From: Polyangiaceae bacterium
Lineage (GTDB): Bacteria > Myxococcota_A > Polyangia > Polyangiales > Polyangiaceae
Assembly: GCA_029266615.1 (NCBI GenBank)
Contig: JAQSWN010000024.1
Location: 1-64,000 of the forward strand
Direction of reading: 5' to 3'
Length of the DNA stretch: 64,000 bases
Below the pieces are notes generated by a model. It saw only the letters and a list, made by a program, of their open reading frames with translations. It ran no database searches and had not been told where the DNA came from. Position numbers and translations under genes: made by a program. The stretch's first letter is position 1, and each line of letters begins with the position of its first letter. Positions 10,929 to 16,860 of this stretch are shown piece by piece.

Positions 10929-11519
10929 TCAGGACTCCTGGCGTGCGTCCCTCGCGCGCTGGCGCGAGAGCGCGCGCAAGAAAGCTTTGCGCGCGCGGTG
11001 CAAGCGCGAATAAACCGTGCCCACGGGAACGCCGATGTTCTCACCGATCTGGTCGCAGGTGAGCCCTTCCAGCTCGAACATGGTGAAGACCACCCGCTGC
11101 TCCAGGTTGAGCGAGCTCAAGATGTCCTGAAGGCGATCGGCCGCCTGACGCTTCTCCACTTCACGTTCCGGGGTCGGCGTGGGTGCGGCGACGTAGGCCA
11201 CCGACGCGGCGTCCGGCACCAACTGCTCGCGACGGAAATGCGCGCGGCGCCGGTAGCCCGCCGTTACGCGGAAGCACACCTCGAACAGCCACGTGGTGAT
11301 GGCGCAGTGACCAGCATAGGAGTCCAGCCGGCGATGCACGACCAGGAACACCTCCTGGTAGACGTCCTCCAAGTGGGGGGAACGCACGCCCATGCGGTAC
11401 AGCGTCTTCCAAATGAACTCGCCGTGGCGCGCGTGCACCTCGGCGACGGTGAGCCGCGGGCGCGCGAGGGCGGAATCCGCAAAACCTTCGAACGTGTTGA
11501 TGAGCTCGGTCATGGGCAT
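10929..11519 (-). CDS. ECF-type RNA polymerase sigma factor
   Basis: From the ATG at 11519 (MPMTELINTF) the protein is 196 residues. It has sigma region 2 (LEDVYQEVFLVVHRRLDSY, then ITTWLFEVCFRVTAGYRRR) and region 4 (LNLEQRVVFTMFELEGLTCDQIGENIGVPVGTVYSRLHRARK), the usual two-domain layout of extracytoplasmic-function sigma factors. No anti-sigma gene with a zinc-binding or transmembrane sensor is adjacent, so its control is unknown. A start 60 bp upstream is possible but adds residues unlike the family. It diverges from the LacI-family gene across about 390 bp. Confidence 0.85.
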   Translation of the reverse strand: MPMTELINTFEGFADSALARPRLTVAEVHARHGEFIWKTLYRMGVRSPHLEDVYQEVFLVVHRRLDSYAGHCAITTWLFEVCFRVTAGYRRRAHFRREQLVPDAASVAYVAAPTPTPEREVEKRQAADRLQDILSSLNLEQRVVFTMFELEGLTCDQIGENIGVPVGTVYSRLHRARKAFLRALSRQRARDARQES

Positions 11520-11670
11520 TGCTCGGGCAGACGACGACCACGCCGCGCGGCCAGCCCGGACGGCGGCCACGCGGATCAACCAACGGCTGAGATGAGGACG
11601 GCGGACGAAGGCGCTCGCGTGCGAGCTACCTCATCCAACGTGGTCTTGACTGTATCTTCCGAAAACCAGC

Positions 11671-11688
11671 TAGTCAAGCGGTTGACTA
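11671..11688. promoter_or_regulatory. Candidate LacI-family operator
   Basis: The 18-bp palindrome TAGTCAAGCGGTTGACTA has 7-bp perfect arms around a GCGG centre. Its CAAGCGGTTG core resembles the A/T-flanked central CG operators of the LacI/PurR family. It lies in the divergent region between the ECF sigma gene and the LacI-type gene starting at 11909, so autoregulation or control of the sigma gene is plausible. Confidence 0.5.
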
Positions 11689-11908
11689 GAAGGGTGACCA
11701 CAGCGCGCAACTCCGCGGCTTCGAAAATGAAAGCGCAGCTCGGACGCCATTCCTCGCGCGAATACAGCGCAAAAAAAATCACGCGGTCTGAACCACCAGC
11801 TTGAAAAGCTCCACTCCTCCTACCAAACCAGCGCCGGCTCTCACGTCCATCGCGCTCACCCCTCCGGCTGGGCCCGCGTCAGGCGCGCTCCGCGCCGATG
11901 TAGTAAGC

Positions 11909-12907
11909 ATGAGACCGTTGGAAAAGCGGCCTCGCGTCACCATCACGGACCTGGCGGAGATGCTCGGCATGGATAAGTCGAGCGTATCGCTGGCGCTGCG
12001 CGACAGCCCCAAAGTTTCGCTCGCAACCCGCGCGCGCGTTCGGCAGGCCGCCGCGGAGCACAACTACATCCCCAACTGGGCCGCCAAGCGCCTCGCGGGC
12101 TCGAGCGGTCATGCCGTGGGGCTCGTGATGCCGAGCGCGTTCGGTTGCCTCACGGATCCGCCGGTCGTGCGCACCGCCCAGGCGCTCGCCAGGCTGGCGG
12201 CAAATCGACAGCTCACCTTGAATTTAATGGCGCACGAGCAGCTCGCCGAATCGAATGGCGAGAACAGCCTGCCCCTTCACGCGGACGGGCTGCTCGTCTG
12301 GGGGGACGTCCCCGCGCCCGCGGCGGTGCGCTTCTCGAGCGCATATGCGCGGCCCTCAATCGTGCTGGATCCCCATCATCCGAGCTACGCCAAGTACAAG
12401 GGCAACACGATCGCCATCGACAACCGCGGAGGGGCGAGCGCGCTCGTCCGTCACCTGCACGAGCGCGGTACCAAGACCCTCACGTTCGTACAAGTCGAGG
12501 ACCTGCACCTCTCGCACGTCGCGCGCTGGAAAGGGACGCAGGAGACCTGGCAGGAGCTCGCGAAAGCCGAGACGCTCACGAAGCTCACCCTCGCCGAGCT
12601 CGACGACGACAAGCTGCGGGAGCTAGCCGAGCGCGGCGAGGCCGGCGTCTTTTGCTCGAACGACCACGGCGCGATGCAGCTGTGGCACCGCATGCGCCGC
12701 CTGGGCATCAGCGCCCCCCGCGACCTGCGCTTGGTCGGGTTCGATGGCGACGAGTATGGGGAGCTCGTCGGGCTCACCACGGCCGTGTTCGACTCCGAGC
12801 TCATGGCGGAGACGGCGTTCACGCGCCTGATCGGCTTGCTTTCGAACCAGCTGACGACGGTGACGGAGTCCATCCCCGTCACTGTTCGCACCGGCACCAC
12901 CAGCTGA
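11909..12907 (+). CDS. LacI-family transcriptional regulator
   Basis: The ATG at 11909 gives 332 residues, the usual LacI length. An alternative TTG at 11801 would add 36 low-complexity residues before the DNA-binding domain. The N-terminal HTH reads VTITDLAEMLGMDKSSVSLALRD with the hinge region AAEHNYIPNWAAKRLAGSS. Next comes a periplasmic-binding-like effector domain with LRLVGFDGDEYGEL near the C terminus, matching the conserved LacI VGFDD segment. It probably represses genes in response to a small ligand, but no sugar-use genes are adjacent and the ligand is unknown. A candidate operator lies at 11671-11688. Confidence 0.85.
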   Translation: MRPLEKRPRVTITDLAEMLGMDKSSVSLALRDSPKVSLATRARVRQAAAEHNYIPNWAAKRLAGSSGHAVGLVMPSAFGCLTDPPVVRTAQALARLAANRQLTLNLMAHEQLAESNGENSLPLHADGLLVWGDVPAPAAVRFSSAYARPSIVLDPHHPSYAKYKGNTIAIDNRGGASALVRHLHERGTKTLTFVQVEDLHLSHVARWKGTQETWQELAKAETLTKLTLAELDDDKLRELAERGEAGVFCSNDHGAMQLWHRMRRLGISAPRDLRLVGFDGDEYGELVGLTTAVFDSELMAETAFTRLIGLLSNQLTTVTESIPVTVRTGTTS

Positions 12908-13341: not shown

Positions 13342-13836
13342 ATGAACCGTACCGCTGGCTTGTTGCTCGTGAGCGCCTCGTTACTGCTCGGTTGCTCCAA
13401 GCCGAAGCCGCCGACGCTCACGCCTCGCTCCGCGCAAGTGACGGCCGTGCTTCCGAGCGGCGTGGAGCTCGGGGTCGAGCTGAACGCCTACAACCCCAAC
13501 GGCTTTCCGTTGATGTGCAGCCAAGTCGATTCAACCTTCGAGCTGCAAGACGGTACGCCGCTGGGCAGCGCGACCAGCAACGAGCCGTTCACGCTGCCGG
13601 CCGAGGGTGACGCGACCATTCGGGCCAAGCTGCAGGTGCGCTTCAGCAGCGCCGCGGCGCTGGCCCCGTATGCGCTCGCAGCCAAGCCGGTGCCGTATCG
13701 CCTTCGCGGCAGCGCGCGCATCGGCGGCGAGCACCTCAACGTGGACGTGCCGTTCACGCTCGACGGCGTGCTCACGGCCGAGCAGGTGATCGCCGCGGGC
13801 TTGCACGGAGCTGCGAACCTGCTGAACAAGCCGTGA
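13342..13836 (+). CDS. LEA type-2 (WHy-domain-like) lipoprotein
   Basis: The 164-residue protein begins with a lipoprotein signal (TAGLLLVSASLLLGC). It continues with a single beta-rich domain whose pattern VELGVELNAYNPNGFPLMCSQVD matches the LEA14/WHy domain. In that family a conserved N-P-N segment lies in an immunoglobulin-like fold. Such proteins are linked to stress and desiccation in plants and are common as lipoproteins in proteobacteria, where function is mostly unproven. It stands alone, 55 bp before the cimA leader. Confidence 0.7.
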   Translation: MNRTAGLLLVSASLLLGCSKPKPPTLTPRSAQVTAVLPSGVELGVELNAYNPNGFPLMCSQVDSTFELQDGTPLGSATSNEPFTLPAEGDATIRAKLQVRFSSAAALAPYALAAKPVPYRLRGSARIGGEHLNVDVPFTLDGVLTAEQVIAAGLHGAANLLNKP

Positions 13837-13891
13837 CAGGCGGGCCATCGCCTTGACGCCCCTCCGCTCCAGGTTCAAGGTTCTGCGCCTC

Positions 13892-13999
13892 ATGCTGCGC
13901 TGCCCGCCCCCGCTCCGCTCCTCGGCGCCTTCGGCGGCCGCAAGTCTGATTCGCTCTGCATCCGGGCTGATTATCGGCTCGGGTGCGGCGGCAAACTGA
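13892..13999 (+). CDS. cimA leader peptide (attenuator peptide)
   Basis: This 35-codon frame before cimA ends SLIRSASGLIIGSGAAAN and TGA. Leu-Ile and Leu-Ile-Ile codons are clustered just before the same tail as in the ilvB leader. Citramalate synthase opens a route to isoleucine, so Ile-codon stalling is the expected signal. The codons for SGAAA coincide with the conserved RNA arm at 13981-13992. A TTGACG at 13853-13858 could be the -35 element of its promoter, though no good -10 is seen. Confidence 0.75.
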   Translation: MLRCPPPLRSSAPSAAASLIRSASGLIIGSGAAAN

Positions 14000-14056
14000 C
14001 GGAAAATCCGGCAGTTTCGTTCCCCCGCGCCGCTCGGTTCGGGGGATTTTTGCTTT
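13981..14056 (+). promoter_or_regulatory. cimA transcription attenuator: antiterminator arm plus intrinsic terminator
   Basis: The terminator pairs TCCCCCG (14021-14027) with CGGGGGA (14040-14046). A C-T mismatch and a 3-bp inner stem (14029-14031 with 14036-14038) close a GCTC loop, and TTTTTGCTTT (14047-14056) follows. The geometry matches the ilvB terminator almost exactly. A competing all-GC pairing is GCGGCG (13985-13990) with CGCCGC (14028-14033), which would break the inner terminator. The leader tail sequence GCTCGGGTGCGGCGGC, then CTGACGGAA after a short variable stretch, is nearly identical to that of ilvB. Confidence 0.8.
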
Positions 14057-14101: not shown

Positions 14102-15772
14102 ATGGATAGCTACAGCCCGTCCGAACGTGATCTTCGCCCCGCCGTAGACGTCTACGACACCACCCTGCGCGACGGCTCGCAGCGTGAGGGCATTTCGTAC
14201 ACGCTGGACGACAAGCTGCGCATCGCCGACCGGCTGGACGCGTTCGGCGTCAGCTACATCGAGGGCGGGTGGCCGGGCTCGAATCCCAAGGACATGGAGT
14301 TCTTCGAGCGCGGCCGCGAGCGGACTTGGAAGCACGCCAAGCTGTCGGCCTTCGGCATGACCAGGCGCGCCAACACCCGCGCGGAGGACGACAAGAACCT
14401 TCAGGCACTCCTGCTCGCGGAGACTCCTGCGTGCACGGTCGTTGGTAAGACCTCCGTTTTGCACGTGACCGAGGTCGTACGCACCACGCTCGAAGAGAAC
14501 CTGAAGATGATCGAGGAATCGGTCGCCTTCTTGCGCTCCAAGGGGCGGGAGGTGATCTACGACGCGGAGCACTTCTTCGACGGCTACGCGCTCGACCCCG
14601 TGTACGCGGTGGAGAGCTTGCGGGCGGCGAAGCGCGGAGGCGCACGCGTGCTGGTGCTGTGCGAGACGAACGGGGGCGGCCTTCCGTGGGACGTGCAGGC
14701 CGTCGTCGCCAAGGTCGCGGCGGAGCTCCAACATCCGCTCGGTATCCACGCCCATGACGACACCGGCTGCGGCGTCGCGAACAGCCTGGCCGCGGTGCTC
14801 GGCGGCGCGCGCCACGTTCAGGGCACCATCAATGGTTTCGGCGAGCGCTGTGGCAACGCGAACCTCTCCGTGATCGTGCCGAACCTGGAGCTGAAGCTCG
14901 GCTTCAAGGCCCTCCCGGCCGGGAAGCTCGTGGAGCTGGCGGAGCTTTCCCGGTTCGTCGCGGACGTGGCCAACGTGACCCACGACGCGCACATGGCGTA
15001 CGTGGGCCGCAGCGCGTTCGCGCACAAAGGCGGTATCCACGTCGCGGCCATGCGCCGACACGCCGACTCCTACCAACATGTGGCGCCCGAAACCGTGGGC
15101 AACGTGATGCGGGTGGTGGTGAGCGAGCTCTCCGGGCGCGGCTCGGTGCTTTCCAAGGCAGAGGAGCTGGGCCTCAAAATCAGCGAAGGCGCAGACCTGG
15201 AAACGCTGAACGAAATCAAGGCCGCCGAAGCGCGCGGGCTTTCGTTCGAGAGCGCCGAAGCGTCCGTCGCGCTGCTCATGCTTCGTAAGGCCCCCGGCTA
15301 TACGCCCCTCTTCGAGCTGCTGGACTACGAGGCTCAGGTCGGCAAACGCCAGGGCACGGAAATGTACGCCGAAGGCATCGTGAAAGTCCGCGTCGGGACC
15401 CAAGTTCTTCATACCGTGGCGGACGGAAACGGCCCCGTCAGCGCTCTAGACGCGGCGCTCCGCAAAGCTCTTGCGCCCATGTACCCGGCCGTGGAACACA
15501 TGCGCCTCGCGGATTACAAAGTGCGTATCCTGGACGGAACCGAAGGAACTTCAGCCATCACGCGCGTGCTGATCGACAGCCGTGACGACCATGGGGACTG
15601 GAGCACCGTCGGCGCGTCGCCCAACATCATCGAGGCTTCCATGCACGCGCTGGTAGACTCCATCGAGTACGGGCTCGTCAAAGCCGGGGTCACGCACGCG
15701 ACCGGTCCCGCCAGCGGCCGCGCCCAGGCGAGCAAGCCTGCGGCCGAGGTCGCTCGGGCGCCTCGTAACTGA
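14102..15772 (+). CDS. cimA: (R)-citramalate synthase
   Basis: The 556-residue protein is a DRE-TIM condensing enzyme of the LeuA/CimA group. Marks are [69 protein letters not shown] and [13 protein letters not shown]. The [10 protein letters not shown] segment and the overall length are typical of the citramalate-synthase type rather than leucine-type isopropylmalate synthase. The C-terminal part is the LeuA-like allosteric domain. It would join pyruvate and acetyl-CoA to start a threonine-independent route to 2-oxobutyrate and isoleucine, later steps being shared with LeuCD and LeuB. It is 17 bp from leuB and has its own attenuator. Confidence 0.92.
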
Positions 15773-15789: not shown

Positions 15790-16860
15790 ATGAAAGCCAA
15801 GATTGTCGTTCTCGGGGGTGATGGTGTCGGTCCGGAAGTCGTGGCGGAGGCCCGCAAGGTGCTGGAAGCCGTGGCCAGCAAGAACGGTCACGAGCTGTCG
15901 TTCGAGAACCAGCTGATCGGCGGCATCGCCATCGACGAGACGGGTGACCCGCTGCCGGAAGCGACACTGAACGCCTGCAAGGGCAGCGACGCGGTGCTGC
16001 TCGGCGCCGTGGGCGGACCGAAGTGGGACGACCCCAACGCCAAAACTCGTCCGGAGAAGGGCCTCTTGGCGATTCGCAAAGGCCTGGGCTTGTACGCGAA
16101 CCTACGCCCCGTGAAGAGCTACCCCGAGCTCATCGATTCGTCGCCGCTCAAGCCGGAGCGAATCGCGGGCGTGAACATGCTCCTCATTCGGGAGCTGACG
16201 GGCGGGCTGTATTTCGGCAAGCAATACCGCGAAAAGACCGAGACCGGCATCAAGGTCGTGGACACCCTAGAGTACACGGACAAGGAAATCGAGCGCGTGT
16301 GCCGCCTCGCGTTCGAGCTGGCGCGAGGCCGTAGCAAGAAGGTCACCAGCATCGACAAAGCCAACGTGCTGGAGTCTTCGCGCGTGTGGCGCCAGGTGGC
16401 GGTGGAGCTGGGCAAGCAGTACAGCGACATCACGCTCGAGCACCAGCTGGTGGACAGCTGCGCGATGCGCCTCGTCACCGCCCCTGGCAGCTTCGACGTC
16501 ATGGTGACGGAGAACATGTTCGGCGACATTTTGTCGGACGAAGCCGCGGTGCTCACCGGCTCACTCGGTATGCTCCCCAGCGCTTCCCTCGGCGAAGGCA
16601 AGCTCGGCCTGTACGAGCCGATCCACGGCTCGGCGCCGGACATCGCCGGCAAAGGCATCTGCAACCCGCTCGGCACGATCTTGAGTGCAGCCATGCTGCT
16701 CCGCCACAGCTTGGGTCTCGAGGCGGAAGCGCAGTCGGTCGAGCGCGCGGTGGAGGCAGCGCTCGCGGCCGGCGCCCGCACCAAGGACCTCGATCCGAAG
16801 GCGGAAAAGCCCCTGTCGACCAGCGCTATGGGCGACGCCGTGGTCAGCCGTTTGGGCTGA
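15790..16860 (+). CDS. leuB: 3-isopropylmalate dehydrogenase
   Basis: The 356-residue NAD-dependent decarboxylating dehydrogenase shows [16 protein letters not shown], the [13 protein letters not shown] loop, and the substrate-binding arginines in [12 protein letters not shown]. It also has [14 protein letters not shown] and the signature around [31 protein letters not shown], plus [14 protein letters not shown]. It acts in leucine synthesis and in the citramalate pathway. Co-transcription with cimA fits this double use. The start has an AGGA six bases upstream. Confidence 0.97.

Follow-up and report, generated by a model that had tools for sequence, protein, structure and literature searches.

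The window analysed here is a 64,000-nt stretch of a Polyangiaceae genome (G000). In it, the cimA and leuB genes lie one behind the other on the forward strand, and are preceded by a compact unit comprising a predicted promoter, a short leader open reading frame and an intrinsic terminator (Table 1). The first-pass annotation had described a 35-codon leader with SLI and GLII clusters followed by a terminator before cimA; this is confirmed.

Table 1. Positions in the window of the cimA–leuB unit, its genes and its paralogue upstream of ilvB.
Feature	Position	Strand	Remarks
Paralogous ilvB attenuator (leader, antiterminator arm, terminator)	3838..4027	+	R1 81.1 bits; one of the copies from which R1 was built
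ECF sigma factor (minus strand) and LacI-family regulator	10929-12907		Between leuD and the cimA unit
Lipoprotein-like gene	13342-13836	+	Label by eye, no NCBIfam match
Predicted cimA–leuB promoter, TTGACG-17-CAAGGT	13853..13881	+	Hexamers identical in G006 (6/6 each)
Leader peptide ORF, 35 codons, MLRCPPPLRSSAPSAAASLIRSASGLIIGSGAAAN	13892..13999	+	ATG 13892, stop TGA 13997-13999
Predicted 1:2 hairpin (anti-antiterminator)	13957..13987	+	About 14 pairs; fold of a 61-nt stretch
Control codons CTG ATT ATC (Leu26 Ile27 Ile28)	13967..13975	+	14, 11 and 8 nt upstream of arm 2
Antiterminator arm 2, GGGTGCGG-C-GGC	13981..13992	+	Within the leader coding sequence
Small hairpin near the stop codon, within the antiterminator loop	13993..14017	+	From predicted folds
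Intrinsic terminator, TCCCCCGCGCCGCTCGGTTCGGGGGA-TTTTT	14021..14051	+	Arms 14021-14031 / 14038-14046, T tract 14047-14051
cimA, citramalate synthase	14102..15772	+	TIGR00977, 673.6 bits (cut-off 450)
leuB, 3-isopropylmalate dehydrogenase	15790..16860	+	TIGR00169; sole match over cut-off in the genome

At the 5′ end of the unit, the −10 box terminates 10 nt before the ATG of the leader. The same promoter layout is present at 12 of the 14 ilvB loci examined, where 8–14 nt separate the −10 box from the start codon. Transcription is expected to start 6–8 nt after a −10 box, which would place the start of the cimA–leuB transcript at about 13887–13890, just 5′ of the leader ATG. Because of this short distance the mRNA is probably near-leaderless, carrying no more than a few nucleotides ahead of the ATG.

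The leader peptide contains four leucine and three isoleucine residues and no valine; SLI corresponds to codons 18–20 and GLII to codons 25–28. The Leu-Ile-Ile codons lie at −14, −11 and −8 nt relative to arm 2 both here and in the cimA copy of the nearest congener (G006). They fall within the predicted 1:2 hairpin, the 61-nt stretch containing which folds with −30.6 kcal/mol in both cimA copies, and which is also part of the minimum-energy fold of the complete 165 nt (13892–14056). Arm 2 consists of GGGTGCGG at 13981–13988 extended by GGC at 13990–13992, and ends 4 nt ahead of the stop codon, so that a ribosome bound at the stop would cover it. The small hairpin that follows is still predicted in G006, where its sequence differs. 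The strand then enters the terminator (−18.8 kcal/mol including a few flanking nucleotides, with a T5 tract), the 5′ arm of which has two possible partners: nucleotides 14025–14031 (CCGCGCC) can pair either with the 3′ arm of the terminator or with GGTGCGG (13982–13988) of arm 2, the latter being the 2:3 antiterminator pairing. A simple terminator scan of the window did not list the 14021–14051 terminator. The fold of the 165 nt has a z score of −2.24 against shuffled sequences, with 6 of 200 shuffles as good, which taken alone is weak.

For the cimA copy of the window considered by itself, the 2:3 pairing does not stand out from shuffled controls of the leader segment, 98 of 200 of which do as well; the high GC content and the U.G pair given by arm 3 account for this. 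The support for this pairing in the cimA unit comes from its relatives. In the ten ilvB copies 79 of 80 alignment cells pair at the antiterminator, compared with 32–75% when slid; these counts are from the ilvB rows alone, and MAFFT set the cimA terminator off by one or two bases relative to ilvB. The helix is nearly invariant in the close ilvB copies, and the covariation counts there are zero. Compensatory changes are found in more distant copies, GGGTGCGA with TCGCACCC in one genome (G063) and GGGCT with AGCCC in another (G046). A terminator could be scored in 36 units; in 25 of them no more than 10 of 200 shuffles attain the 2:3 duplex, and the cimA copy of the window is among the remainder. 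Three further units have no terminator under the rule used and stand outside the 36. The RNA of arm 2 is conserved in the ilv attenuators of the order and is read in two frames, as S-G-A-A-A in 14 rows and as G-C-G(-P-P) in 15, from a total of 32. Translation of one RNA arm in two frames indicates that it is the RNA, and not the peptide, that is preserved. Across genera, the GGGTGCGG arm is seen in both frames (SGAAA or GCGPP) at L105, L107, L127, L129-L135 and similar loci.

The same window contains an attenuator of this kind upstream of ilvB. Its leader has 44 codons with six consecutive valine codons and terminates as GLISSGAAAS*, compared with GLIIGSGAAAN* for the cimA leader, and the DNA of these two leader ends is nearly identical. 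A covariance model (R1) was built from ten ilvB attenuators (alignment A3), these being ilvB upstream regions with a plain core, and no cimA copy was included; the homology of the cimA unit is thus tested without circularity. R1 matches the cimA unit at 13976–14051 with a score of 50.5 bits; the E value is 1.2e-9 for the window and 1.7e-7 for the genome, and the ilvB copies of the genus score 76–89 bits. At E ≤ 0.001 the ilvB and cimA units are matched in the G000 genome, and no third unit; within the window R1 gives one more match, which falls on the complementary strand at the ilvB terminator. Given the match of a model made from ilvB copies, a chance open reading frame and terminator at cimA is rejected. 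It had been proposed that the terminator shares its geometry with that of ilvB, and this proves right, reflecting homology, as seen in the shared leader end and its near-identical DNA. The proposal of a second, separate attenuator before cimA is likewise supported, the unit having its own predicted promoter and being homologous to the ilvB attenuator. No Rfam family reaches its gathering score within the window; the best weak match in the region has 26 bits against a threshold of 112.

In a tree of 11 units the two cimA copies fall together with the ilvB copies from their own two genomes (97/96 support). The branching order inside this group of four is not settled and the cimA branch is long; G009 was excluded from the tree, no promoter having been found for it. 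Most simply, the cimA unit would be a copy of the ilvB unit that arose in an ancestor of G000 and G006. A palindrome (TGGTTGAACCA, 3727–3737) lies upstream of the ilvB promoter, with similar sequences in G006 and G003, and is perhaps an operator; it was not found at seven other ilvB loci checked, nor before cimA.

Genomes with an R1 match (E ≤ 0.001) number 30 of 108 in the family, 32 of 183 in the order and 35 of 317 in the class. The ilvB unit is present in all eight members of the genus examined, all of which are in R1 and therefore match by construction. Thirty of the 32 matching genomes of the order have one attenuator; two copies occur in G000 and G006, and in no further genome among the 183 of the order or the 317 of the class. 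Of the 32 loci of the order, 24 have ilvB within 1.5 kb downstream (blastx), and eight show no match to the branched-chain amino acid proteins of the window; some of these eight presumably begin with dihydroxy-acid dehydratase, judged by eye. None of the 32 precedes cimA, the two cimA copies coming on top of this number. The leader frame could not be assigned by script at two of the 32 (G063 and G081), and the G064 match, which lacks a leader, was counted as a chance hit. The matches outside the order are G207:C638:6415 (E = 4.1e-4), G310:C115:1353 (E = 4.1e-5) and G312:C3:5089 (E = 1.6e-4). A short-core pattern searched in 59 genomes was uninformative, the reversed pattern used as a control matching about equally often.

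The neighbourhood of cimA was compared at 25 loci over the family cut-off, comprising that of G000 and those of 24 relatives. The immediate upstream neighbour is leuD at ten, leuA at six and ilvB/ilvN at one; at eight (G000, G006, G009, G057, G051, G045, G014 and G016) there is no branched-chain amino acid gene within 1.5 kb upstream. The leader is present at two of the 25 loci, those of G000 and G006, the G009 locus lying at a contig end with only 64 nt of upstream sequence. The expectation of a conserved leader and terminator before cimA in the Polyangiales is therefore not borne out, and general conservation in the order is ruled out. Absence of the leader from relatives that keep cimA and leuB together had been put forward as a refutation; such absence is indeed found in most of them, but at 17 of the 25 loci cimA stands directly behind leuA, leuD or ilvN, where a separate attenuator is not expected, so the absence does not refute the attenuator of G000. 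A coarse screen for a leader plus hairpin in 105 cimA upstream regions (the 25 and 80 others) flagged five, among which L189, L191 and L199 were rejected by eye as having no Leu/Ile leader followed by a GC-rich terminator.

The second attenuator is found only where cimA–leuB is split from ilvBN–leuACD, that is in G000 and G006, and it may have been kept because of that separation. In G000 the ECF sigma gene (on the other strand), the LacI-family regulator and the lipoprotein-like gene stand between leuD and cimA. In G006, sequence matching the sigma and LacI genes follows leuD on one contig, and a homologue of the lipoprotein-like gene precedes cimA on another.

CimA serves isoleucine synthesis and LeuB serves both leucine synthesis and the citramalate route to isoleucine; neither serves valine. 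From these roles, leucine plus isoleucine without valine is the expected sensor for a cimA–leuB operon. The cimA leader of G000 has Val/Leu/Ile counts of 0/4/3, compared with 8/4/2 for the ilvB leader of the same genome (Fisher p = 0.018). The contrast is weaker in G006 (1/3/4 versus 5/4/4, p = 0.34), where the sole valine codon of the cimA leader sits 62 nt before the arm. The Leu-Ile pair at the critical site is also present in most ilvB leaders, and is hence not specific to cimA. The earlier reading of a codon bias towards isoleucine rather than valine thus stands as regards the loss of valine, but the bias is towards leucine and isoleucine together, and the Leu-Ile pair is shared with ilvB. 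In line with the products of the operon, valine would have been dropped from the sensor. Lying 32–35 nt upstream of the arm and incompletely conserved (RLI in G006), the SLI cluster probably plays a secondary part in control. The G000 genome has one leuB over the cut-off (that of the window) and a threonine-deaminase-type gene over its cut-off; from the latter, citramalate is probably not the sole route to isoleucine.

Comparison with G006, whose ilvB is 98% identical to that of G000, shows which parts of the cimA unit are held constant. The 17-nt promoter spacer is conserved at 7 positions, compared with full identity of both hexamers. Codons 1–17 of the leader are identical at 31 of 72 alignment columns, versus 27 of 27 nt for codons 25–33, which include the control codons. 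The terminator arms are identical at 10 of 11 and 13 of 14 positions and the loop at 3 of 6. The length difference between the two leaders, 21 nt, is divisible by three and so preserves the frame. This is the pattern predicted for a translated leader with an RNA switch. The conserved block begins at the leader promoter. In G006 it is separated from the lipoprotein homologue by some 1.8 kb of different sequence, which indicates that the promoter and switch are local. In a blastn comparison of that stretch (L223, 2258–4083) with the first 22 kb of the window, nothing matched except the attenuator itself. The cimA copy might instead be a relic, a partial terminator fixed after duplication of the ilvB promoter region that supplies a promoter and no longer regulates. 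Its restriction to two close species would agree with this, as would its R1 score below those of the ilvB copies and, in the window, the drift of arm 3 to a U.G pair with pairing not above that of shuffles. Such decay is difficult to reconcile with retention of every nucleotide of the control codons and arm next to a diverged leader start, or with the preserved terminator, both preserved hexamers and an in-frame length difference, and we regard a relic as improbable.

We conclude that cimA–leuB very probably has a ribosome-mediated transcription attenuator that responds to leucine and isoleucine and that arose within this lineage as a copy of the one at ilvB. RNA polymerase would start just 5′ of the leader ATG. 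With charged Leu- and Ile-tRNA plentiful, the ribosome would reach the TGA codon and mask arm 2, whereupon the terminator would form and transcription would stop. If either amino acid were short, the ribosome would stall at Leu26-Ile27-Ile28 and open the 1:2 hairpin; the freed arm 2 could then pair with the 5′ arm of the terminator, and the polymerase would continue into cimA–leuB. Without a stall, the 1:2 hairpin would hide the antiterminator arm. The ribosome covers about 12 nt downstream of its A site. A stall at codon 26 or 27 would leave most or all of arm 2 free, and a stall at codon 28 less of it.

This mechanism is well supported by sequence anatomy, homology, the pattern of conservation and the distribution of the units; the transcription start, leader translation, the switching itself and the amino acids to which it responds are deduced from these. 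That the leader regulates without classical codon stalling, for example through translation of a near-leaderless ORF or polymerase pausing, seems to us very improbable. It has a precedent in the similar ilvB leader of Streptomyces coelicolor, where codon replacement is reported to have been without effect (PMC1262725). Yet all eleven leaders measured have an isoleucine (ten) or valine (one) codon exactly 8 nt before arm 2, and replacement of the valine codons of the Corynebacterium glutamicum ilvBNC leader abolished the response to valine, as told in a passage of PMC11857589. It is scarcely credible that the hairpin simply serves the lipoprotein-like gene as its usual terminator, with the ORF arising by chance in GC-rich DNA. 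The hairpin is an intrinsic terminator and that gene ends on the same strand 185 nt before it, but a promoter motif stands between them, leader, promoter and terminator all have their homologues in the ilvB unit, and in G006 the block stays with cimA and not with the distant lipoprotein homologue.

Leader-peptide attenuation is textbook knowledge from the enterobacteria. The ilvL, ivbL and leuL attenuators of Escherichia coli control separate branched-chain operons, each through its own leader of differing codon content. Their switching logic is the same as that proposed here, but they do not involve cimA, and the likeness is without demonstrated sequence relation. The closest relatives are the Polyangiales ilvB attenuators, with homologous promoter layout, SGAAA end, antiterminator arm and terminator; they differ in standing before ilvB or another head of an ilv operon and in having mostly valine-rich runs, where the cimA copy has none. 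T-boxes, which control branched-chain genes in Bacillota, bind tRNA directly and without a leader peptide, unlike the cimA unit. They resemble it in sensing tRNA charging at the level of transcription, and a passage of PMC12452182 lists T-box-associated leuA under COG0119, the isopropylmalate, homocitrate and citramalate synthases. No T-box was found beside cimA in 15 of the 80 further loci, 11 of them taken as Bacillota, the Rfam scan of which gave one unrelated match (pan motif).

Attenuation of branched-chain operons by leader peptides is also described in Actinobacteria, in the excerpts seen of PMC11857589 and PMC1262725. The C. glutamicum ilvBNC attenuator, as presented in the former, starts transcription one nucleotide from the leader start codon. 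It is like the cimA unit in having a short leader with Ile, Val and Leu codons and three competing hairpins (anti-antiterminator, antiterminator and terminator), but belongs to another phylum, controls ilvBNC and not cimA, and has a 15-residue leader with a valine run (PMC11857589, same excerpts); this is a likeness of layout without demonstrated sequence relation. A survey of structured RNAs mentions motifs for ilvB and ilvD from Leptospira and Veillonella; the words 'Sorangium' and 'Myxococc' do not occur in its main text (PMC8632094). Attenuation of cimA had been thought little described; in the open-licence literature we found no description of leader-peptide attenuation of cimA or citramalate synthase, nor of branched-chain attenuators in Polyangiales (Myxococcus, Deltaproteobacteria, Sorangium).

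The kind of regulation is thus already known, and the points of interest in the cimA attenuator are the duplication and the loss of the valine run. The attenuator may be a movable module that was duplicated with its promoter onto a detached cimA–leuB when the ancestral ilv–leu–cim operon split, its sensor being retuned from Val/Leu/Ile to Leu/Ile; we give this scenario an even chance. If true, regulatory subfunctionalization would have been caught in the act, with the loss of codons from a near-leaderless leader as its route, and this would be the first leader-peptide attenuator reported for cimA. Leader-peptide attenuation can be traced through the Polyangiales and would extend to citramalate synthase, and the paired copies in one genome, with and without a valine run, offer a natural experiment on how codon content may set the amino acid that is sensed.
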